From Collinsella sp. An7 (GTDB lineage: Bacteria; Actinomycetota; Coriobacteriia; Coriobacteriales; Coriobacteriaceae), in the NCBI RefSeq assembly GCF_002159335.1, contig NZ_NFHP01000001.1, positions 124,001 to 188,000 of the forward strand: a stretch of DNA of 64,000 bases, in the 5' to 3' direction. The notes below the pieces were generated by a model. It was not told where the DNA came from and did not search any database. It saw only the letters and a program-made list of their open reading frames with translations. Shown here piece after piece: positions 3,029 to 45,415 of the stretch. Numbering within the stretch: position 1 is the first letter of the stretch; every line of letters starts with the position of its first letter. The translations under genes were made by a program, and so were the position numbers.

Positions 3029-3168
3029 AGTTTGAGTCGCAAGTGCGACCCTCATTTTTGAAATGCCGAGTAGCCCGATGTTTTGGCTCCGTGCGACCTG
3101 CGCTTTTGTTGGAAAAACGGGGTGTGTACTCAGCAGTCTGCCAAGTTGGGTCACAATAGCGACTCGAA
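3029..3168. repeat. Long-armed palindromic element, copy 1
   Basis: Imperfect inverted arms at 3029-3051 and 3147-3168 share the GAGTCGC and GACCC blocks. The interior carries CCGAGTAG at 3066-3073, 14 bases inside the left arm, the box also seen in copies 2 and 6. It lies directly upstream of rdgB and is the most degraded of the nine copies. Confidence 0.5.
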
Positions 3169-3194
3169 CGTACATCAAAGGCGAGGAGGAACGC

Positions 3195-6176: not shown

Positions 6177-6291
6177 GCTATCTCGGCTGCGCGTGGCCGG
6201 CAGGTCGGGACGCTCTATGAGTGGCGATGTCCTCAAGAGCCGGTCCGTTTGGGCGTTATTATCGATAACCCCCTGAAAATAGGGGGTGATT

Positions 6292-6442
6292 ATAAAAACC
6301 TCGCGCCAATGTAAGGATGGAATCGGAGTTTCTGAAGTAGACCAGATTTGCCCAACTCGTTTACCTGCGGGTTTGTTTCTGTGTTTTGCCTCTCTACTCG
6401 GCAAGGGACAATTCCATCCTTACATTGGCGCGAAGTTTTTAT
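6292..6442. repeat. Long-armed palindromic element, copy 2
   Basis: Arms of 32 bases at 6292-6323 and 6411-6442 are complementary with a single mismatch. Similarity continues weakly outwards into GGGGGT / ACCCCC. On the minus strand the interior reads CCGAGTAG, 17 bases, ACAAACCCGCAGG, 22 bases, TCTACT. Exactly the same blocks and spacings occur in copy 6 at 34021-34167. No open frame of note. The element sits between the tRNA terminator and the recombinase remnant. Confidence 0.8.
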
Positions 6443-6571
6443 TCTGACCCCCTGTTGATGCCCAAAGCTGGCCGTCGCCGTCACTTCAAGCACGGGCAAA
6501 GCCTCCTTGGCGGGACTTCCGGGCATGCTGCAAGCGTTGGATTGCGACAGCATGCAGGTAAGGGAGGACCC

Positions 6572-8608: not shown

Positions 8609-8813
8609 GGACGATTGCCTCTTGGTCTTGGGCACGGCCTCGGCGTCGGCTCTCGATGGGGCTATTTTGCGGCGGGCGAATTGGGTGCTAAAGGGTTACG
8701 CGTAGTTGCGCTTGTATGTTCACCTATCCGCCGCATGCGGCTGGGGCGCGCCCAGCAGACGAAGAGCTTGTCGGATTCGTTCACGCTCGATACCCGCATC
8801 GTCCGTGCATTAT

Positions 8814-8952
8814 TGCGTGCAATGAACCCGATAATGCGTAATTCGGGTTCCCTGCAAGCGTCGGGTTCACAACGTGGCTTAACGTACGCCCCGTTACCTG
8901 CCCTTTTGTCGAGGGTGCACAAATGGGTTCATTACCGGGTTCATTGCACGCA
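8814..8952. repeat. Long-armed palindromic element, copy 3
   Basis: Arms at 8814-8836 and 8930-8952 match in 22 of 23 positions (TGCGTGCAATGAACCCG type). The interior shares TGCGTAA, TCGGGTTCACA, CTTTTG and GAGGGT blocks in the same order with copy 9 near 55.9 kb. It represents a second arm subfamily. Confidence 0.75.
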
Positions 8953-8978
8953 AAAACGCACGGGGGTGGCGGCCGCAC

Positions 8979-12421: not shown

Positions 12422-12586
12422 GCGCCGAAATTGTGTATAGCGAAACATTGTGTATACCGAAACTGAAGCACACGTCGAAGGTCGTTATACATTTCTGCAG
12501 GTCACTGGCCCAAGGCGCCTTTTACATACACTTCGCAGCAAAGTTTCAGTACACACAATTTATTTCGCTATACACAATCTCGCGCC
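12422..12586. repeat. Long-armed palindromic element, copy 4
   Basis: The longest arms of the set: 12422-12469 and 12535-12586, about 50 bases with a few mismatches and small gaps. They are built around ATTGTGTATAGCGAAA and TGTGTA(T/C)ACCGAAACT. The loop of about 65 bases has no obvious gene. The AT-rich arms contrast with the local GC level. Confidence 0.72.
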
Positions 12587-14532: not shown

Positions 14533-14598
14533 CGGGTCGCCTCCATAAACTTTTCGCTTACGAAGACGCGCGTTTTCCGACAGGGTAGACAAGCGCCC

Positions 14599-14628
14599 GT
14601 GAACGGTAGAAAAACGCCGGTGAACGGT
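14599..14628. promoter_or_regulatory. Tandem operator-like repeat upstream of DUF2798 gene A (LytTR-type spacing)
   Basis: GTGAACGGT occurs at 14599-14607 and 14620-14628, a 21-base period. On the minus strand this reads ACCGTTCAC, 12 bases, ACCGTTCAC. Two 9-base direct repeats with 12 bases between are the binding-site layout of LytTR regulators. The same pair at the same spacing precedes the paralogous gene at 19786. Confidence 0.6.
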
Positions 14629-14696
14629 ATCTAGGCTGTGAGCCACCCGCGTCGCTCGCTCCGGAGGCGCCCGTCTACGTCGAGAAAGGTCCCTTC

Positions 14697-15200
14697 ATGC
14701 CCACCAACAAGCGCGAGAGTCTTATCTTCACCGTCATCATGTGCTTTTGCATGGTGCTCTTCATGTCGCTCTACAACGTGATGCGCGTCCACGGATGGCG
14801 GCTCAACCTCGGCATCGTGGCCGAGGCATGGGTCGGGTTTCCGCCCGCCTACATCGTTGCTATGCTGCTCGATGTGTTTGTGGCCAGCCGTTTTGCCAAG
14901 TGGTTTGCGTTTCGCTTCCTGGTGACCCCGGGCAAGAGCTCGCCGCGCGCCATCACGCTCGCCATCAGCACCATGATGGTTTTCCCAATGGTGCTCTTTA
15001 TGTCGCTCTACGGAGCCATCGAGGCGTTCACGCATGTGGGCGTTCCTGCTGCCATTCCGGGCATGTGGCTTGCTAACATCCCCTTTAACTTTGTGGCGGC
15101 GTTGCCGTGGAACCTTTTGGTCGCCGGCCCGTTCTCGCGTTGGCTGTTCCGCCGAGCGTTCCCCGTGGGCACCGTGCTCGAGGAGCCTGCCGCCGCATAG
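14697..15200 (+). CDS. DUF2798-like four-helix membrane protein, paralogue A
   Basis: A 167-residue integral membrane protein of unknown function. Hydrophobic helices fall at ~10-27, 45-63, 90-108 and 130-150. Conserved PTNKRES at the start and FAKWFAFRF in the middle match the paralogue at 19786-20298 almost residue for residue. The two halves look like a repeated two-helix unit, since VIMCFCMVLFMSLY and STMMVFPMVLFMSLY resemble each other. The ATG at 14697 has GAGAAAGG upstream. The tandem operator site upstream suggests regulated expression. Confidence 0.75.
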   Translation: MPTNKRESLIFTVIMCFCMVLFMSLYNVMRVHGWRLNLGIVAEAWVGFPPAYIVAMLLDVFVASRFAKWFAFRFLVTPGKSSPRAITLAISTMMVFPMVLFMSLYGAIEAFTHVGVPAAIPGMWLANIPFNFVAALPWNLLVAGPFSRWLFRRAFPVGTVLEEPAAA

Positions 15201-16743: not shown

Positions 16744-16848
16744 GCAAAAGGACGGGTGCCGGCTGCGCGCCGGGTGTGCGGAAAGAAGGAGTAAGACACA
16801 CCCGGGTACGAGCCGGCACCGACGTTCCAGCGGTTTTGCTGCTGTCGT

Positions 16849-16997
16849 GGTCAAATTCCGGAGAAATCAGCGATTGGACGTCCGAGCAACCGTTGAATTC
16901 TCGAGAATTTGGCCAGCTTGACAAGAAAACCGCAGGAAAGCCTGAACGCTCAAAGCCGTGCAACGGAGGCAATCGCTGATTTCTCCGGATTTTGTCC
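16849..16997. repeat. Long-armed palindromic element, copy 5
   Basis: Arms 16849-16876 and 16970-16996 match in 26 of 28 positions (core TCCGGAGAAATCAGCGATTG). The interior has CCGAG at 16882-16886 and ACAAGAAAACCGCAGG at 16921-16936, variants of the boxes in copies 2 and 6. The right arm ends about 30 bases before a truncated GntR gene. Confidence 0.78.
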
Positions 16998-17027
16998 AGC
17001 GGAGGGCAAAACGCGCCGCTCCCACCG

Positions 17028-18279: not shown

Positions 18280-18333
18280 CGGCCTAGCTTGCTTCGCCGT
18301 GACCGACTCCTCCTACTAGAAGGAACGAGACAT

Positions 18334-18407
18334 GGGTCAGTTGGGGACGTGTTCCATCTGCCCCATTTTCAAAAATGGGGCAGATGGAACACGTCCCCAA
18401 CTGACCC
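18334..18407. repeat. GGGGACG-type short palindrome, full copy
   Basis: Perfect 36-base arms around a two-base loop: GGGTCAGTTGGGGACGTG..., through CCCCATTTT, then the mirror image. It lies 54 bases after the manA stop and 13 bases from the 3' end of the convergent EamA gene, so it could terminate both. Confidence 0.85.
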
Positions 18408-18420
18408 AATCAGAGTCTTC

Positions 18421-19500: not shown

Positions 19501-19651
19501 GGGGCCTCGATCGGGTCGTAGGGGGTTCGGGCGCGAGCATTGTCCGTTGCGGTGTGTGCCCGCGCAACCGGGCCGCGCCGACCGCGGCGCGTCTTCACAA
19601 ACTCTTCGCTTACGAGAATTCGCACAATCCGTTAGGGTGGTTTTAGAACCC

Positions 19652-19681
19652 GTGAACGGTCGAATATCGCCGGTGAACGGT
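19652..19681. promoter_or_regulatory. Tandem operator-like repeat upstream of DUF2798 gene B (LytTR-type spacing)
   Basis: GTGAACGGT at 19652-19660 and 19673-19681, 21 bases apart. The copies are identical to the pair before gene A, although most of the surrounding sequence differs. Confidence 0.6.
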
Positions 19682-19785
19682 AGGTAGTGCTCAAATGATG
19701 CGCTGCTGCCGTGCGATATTCGCCGTTGCACGGCTTCGCCCGCGCCCCCGGAGGCGCCCGTCTTCGTCGAGAAAGGTACTCCTTT

Positions 19786-20298
19786 ATGCCCACAAACAAG
19801 CGCGAAAGCCTGCTCTTTACCGTCATCATGTGCTTCTGCATGGTGCTCGGGATGTCGATCTACAACGTGCTCCGCGTCCACGGTTGGGCCTTTAGCCCCA
19901 GCATTATCGTCGAGGCCTGGGTGGGCTTTCCGCCGGCCTACATCGTCGCGATGCTCCTCGATGTGCTGGTGGCCAGCCGTTTTGCCAAGTGGTTTGCGTT
20001 CCGCTTTATCGTGACCCCGGGCAAGAGCTCGCCGCGCGCCATTACGCTCGCCATCAGCACCACGATGGTCTTTCCCATGGTGTTCTTTATGTCGCTCTAC
20101 GGCGCGTTTGAGGCCGTGACCCACACGGGCGACCTCGCTGCCATCCCCTTCATCTGGCTCGGCAACATTCCGTTTAACTTTGTGGTGGCGCTCCCGTGGA
20201 ACCTGCTCGTGGCCGGCCCCTTCTCGCGCTGGGCGTTCCGCAAGCTGTTCCCGCTCGGCACGGTGCTCGAGGAGCCCGCGGCTGAGGTTGCGGCGTAA
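19786..20298 (+). CDS. DUF2798-like four-helix membrane protein, paralogue B
   Basis: A 170-residue membrane protein, a close paralogue of the gene at 14697-15200. Identical stretches include PTNKRES, FAKWFAFRF and VTPGKSSPRAITLAIST. The leader before the ATG (CCGGAGGCGCCCGTC, then CGTCGAGAAAGG) is also shared, so promoter region and gene were duplicated together. It ends before a strong terminator. Confidence 0.75.
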   Translation: MPTNKRESLLFTVIMCFCMVLGMSIYNVLRVHGWAFSPSIIVEAWVGFPPAYIVAMLLDVLVASRFAKWFAFRFIVTPGKSSPRAITLAISTTMVFPMVFFMSLYGAFEAVTHTGDLAAIPFIWLGNIPFNFVVALPWNLLVAGPFSRWAFRKLFPLGTVLEEPAAEVAA

Positions 20299-28900: not shown

Positions 28901-30852
28901 GCTACCCCTACGTGCTCAAGAACTCCGATGACCCTGAGCGCCGCTTTGGCATTCCCTTTGATGCGCCGCTCTTCCACTGGTACACCGTGCGCGACCGCGA
29001 TCGCCAGCTCGGCGCGTACCTGAGCGAGACCTACGGTGTTACGACCGAGCAGGCGGCGGACGCCATCCGCCAGGCTGACGAGGCGCAGCGCGCCTTTACC
29101 GAGGCGCTCACCCACCGCGGCGAGGAGGTGCTCGCCGAGGTGCGCCGCCGCGGGAGCTACGCCGTCGTCATCGCGTCGCGGCCCTACCACAACGATCCGC
29201 TCGTCAACCACGGTGTTCCCAAGCTCTTCTCGAGCCAGGGCATCGCCGTGCTCACGCCCGATGCCCTGCCCGGCGTGCGCGAGCAGGACCTCTCCCGGAG
29301 CCGGCTCGACATCGTCAACAACTTCCACGCGCGCATGCTCTCCGCCGCGCTCATCACCGCAGCCACGCCCGAGCTGGAGTACGTGCAGCTCGTGAGCTTT
29401 GGCTGCGGGCACGACGCCTACCTCTCGGACGAGATTTCTCGCATGCTCCGCGAGACGAGCAACAAGGCGCCGCTCATCTTAAAGATCGATGAGTCCGATG
29501 CCACCGGTCCGCTCAAGATTCGCGTGCGCTCGTTTATCGAGACCACCGAGCGTCGGCGCCGCGCCGAGGCAGGCCGCCCCGCAGCGGCTCTCGGCCCGCG
29601 CCCGCTGCCCGACCCCTACGAGGTCAAGTACACGCGCGAGATGCGCCGGACCAAGGTGGTGCTCGTGCCCAACACGAGCCATGCGTTCTGCCGGCTCATG
29701 ACGGCGGCGCTCCGTCGCGAGGGCGTGCGGACCGAGCCCCTGCCCGTGGGGCACGAGGAGGCCATCCGCCTCGGCAAGCGCTACGTGCACAACGATATCT
29801 GCTTCCCCGCGCAGATTACCATCGGCGAGTCGCTCGAGGCGCTCACGAGCGGGCGCTACAATCCCGACGAGGTGGCCATCATCACGGGCAAGTACATCGG
29901 CGATTGCCGCCTTACGCACTACCTGCCGCTCTTGCGCAAGGCGCTCGACGACGCGGGCTTTCCGCAGGTGCCGGTCCTCGACAACGACGACGTGGACGCG
30001 CGCGGCGTGCACCCGGGCTTTACGCTCTCGCTTGCCGCGAGCATGGAGATCGCCTGGGGTCTGCCCATGATCGACGCGCTCGAGGCGCTGCTGCGGCGCA
30101 TCCGCCCTTACGAGCTCACACCCGGCTCGGCCGATCAGGCCTTTGAGCAGGCGCTCGACGAGGTGATGCACGGGATCGAGACACACGGCCTGCGCGGTGC
30201 CGAGGAGGGCTTCCGCCGGGCGATCAAGATCATGGGCGAGGTGCCCTACGACCGCTCACATCCGCGGCCGACGGTGCTCATTGTGGGCGAGTACCTGCTG
30301 AACTTTCACCCCGGCGCCAACCACGAAATCGAGCGCTACCTCGAGGCCAACGGCTTGGAGGTCATCGAGGCGCGCATGACCGACGTCATTCGCAAAAGCT
30401 ACTTCTACAAGCATGCCCAGGTGCGCGAGTACCACGTGGACCTGCCCCTCACCGAGCGCGTATGGTACGCCACGGTCGACCGGCTCTTTGACATCGCGCA
30501 CGACCGCTGCGACCGTATCGCCCACGCGCACCCGCTCTATGAGCCGCCCACGCGCATGCCCGAGCTCGTTAAGGCCTCGGACGACGTGCTCCACCACACC
30601 TTTGACGCGGGCGAGGGCGTGCTCATCCCCGCGGAGATTCTGGAGCACGCGGCGCGCGGCTGCCGGGCGTTTGTGATCTTGCAGCCCTTTGGTTGCCTGC
30701 CCAACCACGTGGTGGGCCGCGGCCTGGTGCGCGCGCTCAAGGAGCGCTACCCCGATGCGCAGATCCTGCCGCTCGACTACGATCCAGATGTGAGCTTTGC
30801 GAACGTGGAGAACCGCCTGCAGATGCTCATCATGAACACACGCCGCTCGTGA
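25969..30852 (+). CDS. Acyl-CoA dehydratase activase-related fusion protein (two BcrA/BadF ATPase domains plus DUF2229)
   Basis: A 1627-residue protein of the 2-hydroxyacyl-CoA dehydratase activator type. Domain 1 (~30-295) is an ASKHA ATPase: GLDIGSTTTKVVVLD, GGQDAKM, and CAGGTGAF with a possible cluster cysteine. Domain 2 (~420-700) repeats it: GIDSGSTTTKF, DIGGQDMK, NEACSAGCGSF. A CRRCGNRC...NRCPRG cysteine segment follows near 720. After an Ala/Pro linker, a DUF2229/HgdB-like part begins (PFWSTLFRSLGF, TVCFPAKLVHGH). Activators pass electrons to dehydratases at ATP cost, but no dehydratase is nearby, so its partner is unknown. The start chosen is ATG 25969. Confidence 0.85.
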   Translation: MAEKNVPLRDERSDLEGASAHPEATGSTEPTEPASAPVPRAIRVGLDIGSTTTKVVVLDADTHEVLYWRYKRHGARQAASAAEALEEVQRRFPGVPARVAVTGSGARDIARALGADYVQEVVANAIAICELYPQVRCAVELGGQDAKMLFFHAEGPDAEPQVSDMRMNGSCAGGTGAFIDEMAKLLGVSPEGFEELAAAGTRVYEVSGRCGVYAKTDIQPLLNQGVSRADLALSALHAVARQTIGGLAQGIDIEAPVIFEGGTLAYHPTLVRVFTEQLELAPGEVVVPADPQVIIARGAALSLDRLFAEHAGEGAEGAGQAAGDAAGAQAGGGVRAEGEQSAPATPAASPDDAPEQSAAHAAAIDLAAGIAALRDLAEHPVDDGSPAVQPFFASEEERADFARRHPAEVPAPGPAAFSRGDTVHAILGIDSGSTTTKFALINAAGELLDSFYASNEGKPLDVARAGLMDLKCRWDEAGVALVIDAVGTTGYGEQLFARAFHADYHTVETVAHARAAAMCVPDATFVLDIGGQDMKAIWLDHGVLTDIVVNEACSAGCGSFLEGFAANLGVAVEDIASAAFRSTDPAALGSRCTVFMNSSVVSEQRRGKGPDDIMAGLCRSIIENVFTKVIRVANLDALGERIVVQGGTFRNDAVLRAFEQFLGRSVTRAPHPGLMGAIGVALLAQEHAEESEERRGAEGASSFIGLDALEGFAHTEYAGVTCRRCGNRCARSVVAFSDGALYVTGNRCPRGEEISWMELIREVPEAAADAPAGALVGEGEGTAGAGPAADAPVAAGSDAAGAAAPELATSGGEARPAASVRPSPSARTASARADGASAAPTGPAVEERRPEPSANLFDERERLLFKNWPCEPVAPARGETVGIPRVLEFWDQMPFWSTLFRSLGFTVRISRPSTRRTFERGLAHVTSDTVCFPAKLVHGHIRDLADAHVDRIFMPIITTVPTENTAKTSEWMCAVVKGYPYVLKNSDDPERRFGIPFDAPLFHWYTVRDRDRQLGAYLSETYGVTTEQAADAIRQADEAQRAFTEALTHRGEEVLAEVRRRGSYAVVIASRPYHNDPLVNHGVPKLFSSQGIAVLTPDALPGVREQDLSRSRLDIVNNFHARMLSAALITAATPELEYVQLVSFGCGHDAYLSDEISRMLRETSNKAPLILKIDESDATGPLKIRVRSFIETTERRRRAEAGRPAAALGPRPLPDPYEVKYTREMRRTKVVLVPNTSHAFCRLMTAALRREGVRTEPLPVGHEEAIRLGKRYVHNDICFPAQITIGESLEALTSGRYNPDEVAIITGKYIGDCRLTHYLPLLRKALDDAGFPQVPVLDNDDVDARGVHPGFTLSLAASMEIAWGLPMIDALEALLRRIRPYELTPGSADQAFEQALDEVMHGIETHGLRGAEEGFRRAIKIMGEVPYDRSHPRPTVLIVGEYLLNFHPGANHEIERYLEANGLEVIEARMTDVIRKSYFYKHAQVREYHVDLPLTERVWYATVDRLFDIAHDRCDRIAHAHPLYEPPTRMPELVKASDDVLHHTFDAGEGVLIPAEILEHAARGCRAFVILQPFGCLPNHVVGRGLVRALKERYPDAQILPLDYDPDVSFANVENRLQMLIMNTRRS

Positions 30853-30950
30853 GAATATGGGGACGGGTGCGTTTTTCTCACTTTTGGGAATATGGCACCC
30901 GTCCCCATTTTCCCAAAAGTGAGAAAAACGCACCCGTCCCCATATTCTCA
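30850..30950. repeat. GGGGACG-type long palindrome overlapping a stop codon
   Basis: Arms of 41 bases (30850-30890 and 30910-30950), perfectly complementary, starting TGAGAATATGGGGACGGG. The loop of about 19 bases itself contains another GCACCCGTCCCC copy. Its first three bases are the TGA stop codon of the activase gene. Confidence 0.85.
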
Positions 30951-30973
30951 CGGCTCCAACCTCGGGGTTTGTG

Positions 30974-34006: not shown

Positions 34007-34020
34007 TCAGGGTGCCCTGC

Positions 34021-34167
34021 GCAAAAGTACCGATTGCCCGTATCAAATTCGCGACTGCCCGAGTAGCAAGGGGTTATCCAATAACAAACCCGCAGGATTC
34101 TGAAGTCCAAAACGGGCGTCTACTCGGCCTTCCGCAGATGTGATACGGACAATCGGTTGTTTTTTGC
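34021..34167. repeat. Long-armed palindromic element, copy 6
   Basis: Arms 34021-34045 and 34141-34167 pair apart from a small indel and two mismatches (ACCGATTG, CCGTATCA). Interior boxes: CCGAGTAG 34059-34066, ACAAACCCGCAGG 34084-34096, TCTACT 34119-34124. Spacers of 17 and 22 bases are identical to those in copy 2, while the arms are unrelated to copy 2. It lies between clpC and disA. Confidence 0.82.
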
Positions 34168-34385
34168 AGGGCCCTGTACGCCCCGCCGACGATGCGCTGT
34201 GCCCGCCGAAATGGGCCAGCCCTTCACCTCGTCGCACCGTCGCCCCCGTGGGGGCGTTTTGTCAAAAGTGGACGCGCGCGCCGGATGAGGGCAGATTCGT
34301 GCGAAAATGAACCCGACTGTGACAAAGCGAGCTAAGCGCCGACGGTTGCCGCCCGGCGTGCTGACGTGTGAGATGGAGGAGCGCA

Positions 34386-36253: not shown

Positions 36254-36381
36254 CTGAGATTGCTGCGCTCGGCCGGGGCGACGCCCCGCGCGATCGTTAC
36301 AAGGGGACAGAGGCTTTGTGCCAGGGACGCCTGCGGCACCCTGGGAAGGGCCGCTATCCTTTGCTACGAGAGCCTCTGAAT

Positions 36382-36536
36382 AAACTTGACCCTTACGTGA
36401 GAGCCTCTTTTGGAGTCCGTTGAGTACGCTGCATCATGCTGAAGTGCTCAACTGGGCTTTTGCTGAGGTTTTAGGGCTGATTATGGCGGTCCACTTGCCG
36501 TTCCCCGAAAAGAGGCTCTCACTTAGGGGTCGAGTT
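36382..36536. repeat. Long-armed palindromic element, copy 7
   Basis: Arms 36382-36411 and 36507-36536 (GTGAGAGCCTCTTTT and complement). The interior TGAGTACGCT ... CTCAACTGGGCTTTTG is shared with copy 8. The arms differ from copy 8 at paired positions so that complementarity is kept. It lies between ispD and the convergent ispF. Confidence 0.82.
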
Positions 36537-36648
36537 TTCGCACGGGACGCTAAAGCCGATAATCAGCGCTTCCGAGGCTCCGCTCGGCCGAGTCAACGCG
36601 TCTAGCGTACGGCTCGTCCGGCGTTCTGTGCCAGGTTCCGCCCTGCTT

Positions 36649-37128
36649 CTACGCTCGCTCGAGCAGGCAGACGGCCCAGGCGCCGATGCCCCGGCCCTCG
36701 CCTTCCCAGCCGAGGCGCTCGGTCGTGGTGGCCTTAACGCCCACCTGCTCCACCGAGACGCCGAGCGCACGGCTCAGGTTCTCGCGCATCTGTTCGCGGT
36801 GCGGACCGAGCTTGGGCTCCTGTGCGGCCACGGTGCAGTCGGCGTCTACCAGCTCAAAGCCGCGCTCGCGGGCGTAGGCCATCACGCGGCCGAGCAACAC
36901 GAGCGAGTCGGCGTCTTCGTAGGCGGGGTCGTCGTCGGGGAAGAGCTTGCCGATATCCCCGCCGCGGCAGGCCCCGAGGATGGCGTCGGCCAGCGCGTGG
37001 GCGAGCACGTCGGCGTCGGAATGGCCGAGAAGCCCCTTGGTGTGCGGAATGTCCACGCCGCCGATGATGCAGCGCCGCCCCTCCACGAGCCGGTGAACGT
37101 CGTACCCATGACCGATATGCAGCGACAT
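36649..37128 (-). CDS. ispF: 2-C-methyl-D-erythritol 2,4-cyclodiphosphate synthase
   Basis: Cyclises CDP-methylerythritol phosphate in the MEP pathway. 159 residues, normal length. The metal-binding GHGYDVHRL is at 6-14, GVDIPHTKGLLGHSDADVLAHAL at ~24-46 and KATTTERLGWEGEG near the C-terminus. It is encoded on the strand opposite ispD, although the two are usually cotranscribed or fused. Confidence 0.95.
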   Translation of the reverse strand: MSLHIGHGYDVHRLVEGRRCIIGGVDIPHTKGLLGHSDADVLAHALADAILGACRGGDIGKLFPDDDPAYEDADSLVLLGRVMAYARERGFELVDADCTVAAQEPKLGPHREQMRENLSRALGVSVEQVGVKATTTERLGWEGEGRGIGAWAVCLLERA

Positions 37129-37236
37129 CGCGTTCCCTTTCTCTTTGACTGTCTGGCCGTGTTTCCACTCCATTGTGCCAGATGTTACGTTTTGCCCTGC
37201 GCCGATAAAACGCTCGCCAGATGCGTGCGGCAGGGC

Positions 37237-37242: not shown

Positions 37243-37254
37243 AGACGGCGGATG

Positions 37255-37358
37255 CAGGGGTACCCGCGTCTTTGCCGGAGCAGCTGCCGGCGCGACGCGA
37301 GTTGAGAGGGCGCATGCCCAACCCTTCGAACCTGTCAGTTAACACTGTCGTAGGGAGC
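37255..37358 (+). promoter_or_regulatory. TPP riboswitch (THI element)
   Basis: Contains the conserved aptamer pieces in order: GCAGGGGTACCCGCG at the 5' side, GTTGAGAGGGCGCATGCCCA, ACCCTTCGAACCTGTCAGTTAACACTG in spaced segments, and CGTAGGGAG closing the first stem. It stands 107 bases before thiM. High thiamine pyrophosphate should reduce expression of the three genes behind it. A GC-rich stretch before thiM could form the expression platform, but I cannot assign a terminator with confidence. Confidence 0.93.
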
Positions 37359-37464
37359 ATGAACCGAGTGCAGGCGCTTCTGACGGGTGCGCGGGGCTCG
37401 CACGAGCCACCCGCGTTGCCGCAGAAGCGTTTTTTTGTGCCCGGGCTCCGGAAAGGAAACCCTC

Positions 37465-41097: not shown

Positions 41098-41173
41098 TGG
41101 GTCATTTGGGGACGTGTTCCGTCTGCCCCATTTTCAAAAATGGGGCAGACGGAACACGTCCCCAAATGACCCA
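41098..41173. repeat. GGGGACG-type short palindrome, full copy
   Basis: About 37-base arms, TGGGTCATTTGGGGACGTG ... CCCCATTTT and mirror. It begins 7 bases after the cysS stop and ends 3 bases before the 3' end of the convergent carbonic anhydrase gene. Compared with 18334-18407 the arms differ at several positions, each time on both sides. Confidence 0.88.
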
Positions 41174-43029: not shown

Positions 43030-43106
43030 ATGGGTCAGTTGGGGACGTGTTCCGTCTGCCCCATTTTCAAAAATGGGGCAGACGGAACACGTCCCCAGCT
43101 GACCCA
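43030..43106. repeat. GGGGACG-type short palindrome, full copy
   Basis: Same layout as 41098-41173 but with TCAGTTGGGG / CCCCAGCTGA at the outer arms, leaving one mismatch. It is the only full copy not close behind a stop codon: it lies about 96 bases upstream of a minus-strand gene start. The rest of 43107-43486 is non-coding GC-rich DNA with nothing recognisable. Confidence 0.8.
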
Positions 43107-45055: not shown

Positions 45056-45087
45056 CGTCGGCGCGCGTTTTTGCGGGCGCGGAACAT

Positions 45088-45237
45088 CTCGACCCTTGAT
45101 GTGAGTGCATCTTTTGGGATCGGCGAGTAGCACTGTAGTACGCTAAAGCACTCAACTGGGCTTTTGAAGGCGGAATAGACCGAATATGGGTGGTCTATTC
45201 CGCCTTTTCTAAAGATGCACTCACATCGGGGGTCGAG
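45088..45237. repeat. Long-armed palindromic element, copy 8
   Basis: Arms 45088-45114 and 45211-45237 match in 25 of 27 positions. CGAGTAG at 45124-45130 and GTACGCT ... CTCAACTGGGCTTTTG are shared boxes. A second, perfect 15-bp hairpin (AAGGCGGAATAGACC and complement, 45167-45206) is nested at the right side. It lies just after the GH13 gene. Confidence 0.85.
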
Positions 45238-45415
45238 TTTTTTCGGCCGCAGATTTCGCCCCGGGAAATACCGATTTAAGACCGTTGCGCCCGGGGAGGT
45301 GGCGGCGCGGCGGATTGGCCTGAGGGCGGGAATCGGTGGCGCTGCGCCGATGCGGCCGGAGGCCTGAGACTCCGGCCGTGGTAGGTTGGAGCGCGGGGAG
45401 AATCGGTCTGTTTCT

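Follow-up and report, generated by a model that had tools for sequence, protein, structure and literature searches.

A widespread repeat superfamily of the Coriobacteriaceae with a conserved interior and matched, variable arms

Two long hairpins of Collinsella sp. An7, numbered copies 7 and 8 in the initial annotation of this DNA, belong to a widespread and real superfamily of repeats, of which no description was found in the searches made. Whole elements are approximately 120-180 bp in length and have complementary arms of approximately 17-45 bp at both ends, an inner inverted pair GAGTAG...CTACTC, and a central motif ACC(T/A)GC..TTTTG, which reads CTCAACTGGNCTTTTG in fam1. Both copies are members of fam1, one arm type of the larger superfamily. 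With about even confidence, copies 7 and 8 are read as a putative non-autonomous, MITE-like mobile DNA element of the Coriobacteriaceae, the arms of which would be set together at copying.

In the window, the whole 64,000-nucleotide stretch of An7 that was analysed, copy 7 lies on the plus strand with a 5' arm of the fam1 subtype GAGAGCCTC at 36382-36411 and a 3' arm at 36508-36537, both placed by arm pairing, and the conserved core motif CTCAACTGGGCTTTTG at 36447-36462. Copy 8, also on the plus strand, has a 5' arm of the subtype GAGTGCATC at 45080-45114 (arm pairing and family alignment) and a 3' arm at 45211-45245 (arm pairing). Between these are the inner GAGTAG that is kept across families (45125-45130), the core motif CTCAACTGGGCTTTTG (45151-45166, from the family alignment), and CTATTC at 45195-45200 as the counterpart of the inner CTACTC. 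The positions and long complementary arms given by the initial annotation were borne out, with 27 of 30 arm positions paired in copy 7, 30 of 35 paired in copy 8, and 96 nt between the arms in each. The same was true of the differences it described on both arms, GAGAGCCTC/GAGGCTCTC in copy 7 and GAGTGCATC/GATGCACTC in copy 8, and of a perfect 15-bp hairpin nested in copy 8 (plus strand, 45167-45206, with arms at 45167-45181 and 45192-45206), which sits in a segment that is usually variable among fam1 copies in the family alignment. As for the interior motifs thought to be shared, CTCAACTGGGCTTTTG (starting at 36447 and 45151) is homologous and is the family core motif; GTACGCT, found at 36424 and 45138, falls in different columns of the family alignment, and its match is therefore a coincidence.

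Searches by blastn, with copy 7 and another copy as queries, yielded approximately 30 fam1 copies in the An7 genome (2.37 Mb in 18 contigs), of which 6 carry the GAGAGCCTC arm subtype and 24 the GAGTGCATC subtype. The copies are intergenic, a called open reading frame being overlapped by 2 of 29. Two near-identical copies (L028 and L031) located about 8 kb apart on contig C11 have in common the element and approximately 92 bp of right flank with a terminator-like hairpin, and differ in the left flank. The second fam1 query matched nothing by blastn in 39 relatives at E 0.001. Because the fam1 arm pattern likewise had no match in genome_contigs, a collection that may omit An7 itself, the search for further members was based upon interiors.

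A sequence-only model of interiors (R1) matched fam1, two further families of the An7 genome (fam2 and fam4), single elements of the same genome, and places in seven of eight other genomes of the genus; most of these places have complementary arms of a different sequence. Fifteen copies of fam2 were collected from An7, with arms quite unlike those of fam1 and an interior organised in the same way. GAGTAG lies approximately 10 nt in from one arm and CTACTC approximately 10 nt in from the other, and the stretch separating the two holds the motif CC(T/A)G(C/G)..TTTTG common to fam1 and fam2. The third family, fam4, has six copies. Members with other arms also occur in the window, namely a fam2 element at 6278-6456 (plus strand; arms 6278-6323 and 6411-6456; R1 match at E 1.1e-10), an element with its own arm type at 34014-34172 (minus strand according to the core; arms 34014-34053 and 34133-34172, 32 of 40 positions paired), and another with its own arm type at 3030-3169 (plus strand; arms 3030-3051 and 3148-3169, 18 of 22 paired; interior containing GAGTAG and ACCTGCGCTTTTG). 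The R1 matches of the latter two were weak (E 0.016 and 0.24, respectively), and their arms and core motifs were read directly. Comparison of the fam1 and fam2 interior profiles gave a best E of 0.11, with some shuffled decoys scoring alike; as the profile comparison alone is weak, the common origin of the two families is drawn from the placed GAGTAG/CTACTC and ACC.GC..TTTT motifs. Three hairpins at 8803-8963, 12426-12582, and 16848-16998, with long arms, approximately 90-120 nt between them, and a single copy each by blastn, had no match to the interior model and were kept out of the superfamily. The loops of those at 8803 and 16848 hold CCTGC..TTTT.

Two wider interior models without arms, constructed once the first relatives were known, matched 56 (R2) and 19 (R3) of 59 Coriobacteriaceae genomes, with up to 35 R2 matches per genome. 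Complementary arms, which the models had never seen, straddled the interior at a score of at least 10 in 43 of 50 loci compared to 8 of 500 control positions taken within these loci (sample: 50 of loci L197-L255, L218-L226 left out), and were present in 31 of 36 loci from other genera. Many of the arms in relatives are perfect over 22-28 bp and mutually unlike; the arm sequence varies between species and the core does not. The fam3 arm type was found in records named Collinsella sp. An307, Collinsella sp. An268, uncultured Collinsella, and uncultured Coriobacteriaceae bacterium. No Rfam family matched these elements, and a literature search covering few subscription journals returned no account of such repeats in Collinsella or Coriobacteria. 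Phage or plasmid cargo was rejected, as one fam2 element searched against plasmids and copy 8 searched against phages gave no match at E 0.01 and the fam1 arm pattern had no match in viral_contigs.

Near-exact spacing and conserved columns indicate that the interior is not neutral filler. In genome G015, every one of 22 arm pairs spans 127 bp; three longer pairings (286, 364, and 397 bp) link arms of adjacent elements, and under the exact pattern 7 of 53 arm matches were left without a partner. The interiors of 17 equal-length copies in this genome differ on average at 40% of positions, with AGTAG, ACC.GC..TT, and TAC.CG as conserved columns. Arm spans of fam2 in An7 are 113 bp (13 copies) or 114 bp (2 copies), and those of fam1 mostly 124 or 125 bp (25 anchor pairs, counted from a short anchor with chance matches included). 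An origin by insertion of the core into palindromes already present was rejected, since no opposed arms among the 53 arm matches of G015 lie closer than the element spacing.

Covariation over many copies, the check proposed for the paired differences of copies 7 and 8, was found in part. Cells changed on both sides numbered 29 across 23 fam1 copies compared to 10.9 in shuffles that keep relatedness in (0 of 500 as high), which is beyond chance; these double changes mostly represent one historical split of fam1 into its two arm subtypes (6 and 24 copies). Within subtypes, arms of the same fam1 copy had 2.63 differences and arms of different copies 2.96 (stratified P 0.034), the corresponding values for fam2 were 1.00 and 0.97 (stratified P 0.75), and arm coupling in fam4 had a P of 0.76. 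Coupling was apparent without stratification in fam2 (P 0.0006) and in fam3 (P 0.001, orthologues included). Among copies of one arm type, each arm accumulates changes almost independently of the other.

G015 contains three main arm types in one genome and 35 R2 matches, 18 elements of which were used for an arm-type test. Arms matched within copies (0.56 vs 2.08 differences, 0 of 20,000 permutations), and the nearest core relative had the same arm type in 7 of 18 cases vs 5.1 expected (P 0.23). As the arms match within a copy and are not tied to core relatedness, both ends change together as one block. One copy has mixed arms, beside an unmixed sister copy.

These patterns are consistent with a model in which an enzyme supplied in trans would handle a complex consisting of two matched arms at a fixed distance and the core. 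As such a complex would need two matched arms at a set distance, both arms of a new copy would be of one type, and the arm type would switch as a block. After insertion each arm would drift separately, so that the 'compensatory' differences between copies 7 and 8 would mark arm subtypes and not base-by-base repair of a fold. A tentative and rather unlikely extension is a class of mobile element recognised by its inner core, exact spacing, and mere matching of the arms (as a DNA hairpin or cruciform), with arm sequence free and a new arm type placed at both ends in a single round of copying by fold-back synthesis; were this true, the arms would turn over between species and the core would persist.

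The one colinear relative aligned (G006) lacks copy 7 at the orthologous intergenic site, and four of four relatives aligned (G003, G005, G006, and G007) lack copy 8 at its orthologous site, absences that could reflect loss. The gene beside copy 7 (window approximately 36260-37200; query 1350-1817) has its An7 orientation in G006 and is inverted in G002, G003, G005, and G007. No target-site duplication was detected in 27 fam1 copies, with no excess over shuffled flanks, and TA is present at both ends in 11 of 17 G015 copies; a target-site duplication or palindromic target was rejected as without signal in the fam1 flanks and G015 ends. Unpaired arms frame no transposase in the loci examined, the An7 assembly being a draft of 18 contigs from which insertion sequence copies may be lost. 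RAYT, the sole transposase type tested, was rejected as the mobiliser because it is not linked to the elements. Across 29 RAYT loci scanned the best core-motif score was 14.8 vs mostly more than 20 for elements; GGGGAC repeats frame several RAYT genes in relatives, and the GGGGAC motif flanks the only RAYT gene found in An7 (L084). Furthermore, a Y1_Tnp match is absent in 4 of 21 genomes searched, all four of which have R2 matches.

Other repeats were observed alongside. Two near-perfect hairpin families of the GGGGACGTGTTCC and GGGGACGGGTGC types are multicopy in the An7 genome (window 18333-18408, 41098-41173, 43031-43106, and 30848-30952), and the same GGGGAC motif flanks the RAYT gene L084. 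A 300-bp stretch preceded by short GTGAACGGTA repeats occurs at 14575-15000 and again at 19649-20080 with 85% identity.

Across nine sets of orthologous copies (17 pairs, not independent of one another), differences were counted at 25 of 776 arm positions, 168 of 1765 interior positions, and 400 of 3400 flanking positions, corresponding to 3.2% in arms vs 9.5% in interiors, a comparison biased to conserved arms in that five of the nine sets were found via arms; the four remaining sets gave 17 of 294 for arms vs 84 of 612 for interiors. Since arms change more slowly than interiors, which is partly ascertainment, they are probably constrained where they sit, suggesting some local function. Changed arm pairs in orthologues were one-sided in 17 cases and both-sided in 4.

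Change in place bears on quasi-palindrome correction, in which template-switch conversion from arm to arm during replication would keep the arms matched without selection and sometimes flip the spacer. Both outcomes, arm homogenisation and spacer inversion, have published precedent (PMC8604942 and PMC8794818). Single events among the repeats agree with it. In one orthologous pair (L174 in G007 and L089 in G002), one copy has an inner hairpin with 19 bp of perfect pairing and the other an imperfect counterpart, with divergence of 20 of 105 interior positions vs 8 of 200 flanking positions; this inner hairpin is a probable template-switch conversion. Two fam2 copies (L079 and L080) have a common tRNA-bearing right flank, approximately 30 bp in common on the left, and inverted interiors between these flanks, and fit spacer inversion by template switching. 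The nested hairpin of copy 8, lying in a usually variable segment, points in the same direction. However, frequent in-place conversion would erase one-sided changes, and the little or no copy-level coupling within arm types of fam1, fam2, and fam4 counts against it, as does the presence in G015 of dissimilar cores with arm type c, which is not a product of within-copy conversion. Conversion holds for single events and is doubtful as the source of matched arms in general.

The initial annotation had attributed the paired differences to selection for a long hairpin or to conversion between arms, as in a folded RNA or a hairpin DNA substrate. The second alternative does better, given the block change in G015 and the inner-hairpin difference of the orthologous pair L174/L089. 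The first corresponds to an RNA selected for its fold (bidirectional terminator, RNase III target, or small RNA), its stem kept by compensatory change. Predicted folds of copies 7 and 8 as single-stranded RNA are indeed very stable (-81.6 and -86.6 kcal/mol; z of -11.0 and -9.1 against dinucleotide shuffles, none of 200 shuffles folding as well). In simple codon-based gene calls, which identified both neighbours of 27 fam1 copies, the flanking genes are convergent at 14 copies and divergent at 2, compared to 6 convergent pairs among the 37 adjacent gene pairs of the window. The termini of fam1 are A- and T-runs, and the slower change of arms than interiors between orthologues is likewise in keeping with a selected stem. 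In sense orientation, however, mismatches in the arms comprised 67 G·T vs 74 A·C (112 distinct elements oriented by core, 3147 arm pairs, arms of at least 16 bp only), despite an arm finder that favoured G·T. RNAalifold gave no consensus structure for the interior, no Rfam family was matched, and T-runs are missing in several other arm types. With neither an excess of G·T nor an interior consensus fold, a selected RNA fold is unsupported: covariation was seen at the level of arm subtypes, and the G-U tolerance of a structured RNA used from one strand was not seen, although use of both strands would equally give G·T equal to A·C. Selection on a folded RNA is thus considered improbable. A TPP riboswitch-like match at approximately 37246-37373 of the window scored 48.4 bits, below the Rfam gathering score of 54.3.

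Near-invariant arm spacing would also be expected of a chromosomal protein-binding site, the arms being paired operators at a fixed distance that spread by duplication. Short dyads are often present in arms (GCTCA-N9-TGAGC in fam3), and a solo fam3 arm, identical in two species (L171 on contig C22 of G007 and L175 on contig C27 of G002), is located approximately 20 bp upstream of the start of a putative LysR-type gene, a label read from the protein alone. Operators of this kind are difficult to reconcile with arms that vary by species around a constant core, and the solo arm represents one site only, in two species; a binding site is regarded as unlikely.

The superfamily provides a repeat family that can be searched for in bacteria common in gut communities, and it is present in nearly all genomes tested of their family. 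Double changes in a hairpin are not in themselves proof of selection on RNA; in this case they distinguish arm types that switch as a unit. With varied arm types on similar cores and orthologues in multiple species, the way in which matched inverted repeats originate can be tested directly.

Several known systems invite comparison. Integron attC sites are long imperfect palindromes of species-specific sequence, to which the elements are likened by description; the elements described here are dispersed and not in cassette arrays. The bcr1-type repeats of the B. cereus group, approximately 155 bp in length and found in one bacterial group, have strong secondary structure. By description only, they are alike in size and fold, and they belong to a different phylum; we know of no bcr repeats with several arm types on one core. 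REP/BIME sequences (GTAG- or CGTC-tagged palindromes) are similarly palindromic and dispersed, but consist of 20-40 bp palindromes with a GTAG or CGTC tag at the foot, compared to approximately 120-180 bp for the elements here, and flank a RAYT gene, whereas GGGGAC repeats accompany the RAYT genes of the genomes studied. Long terminal inverted repeats enclose some RAYT genes (PMC3733652). Bacterial MITEs (Correia/NEMIS, ERIC, RUP, RPE, and QMITE) are described in PMC2229807 and PMC10969869 as less than approximately 200 bp, dispersed, and intergenic, with terminal inverted repeats and predicted long stem-loop transcripts. The elements of the Coriobacteriaceae resemble MITEs so described in being short, non-coding, dispersed, and multicopy with terminal inverted repeats. 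They differ from that description in having no detected target-site duplication or parent insertion sequence, and in that core and spacing are kept despite turnover of the terminal repeats from species to species.
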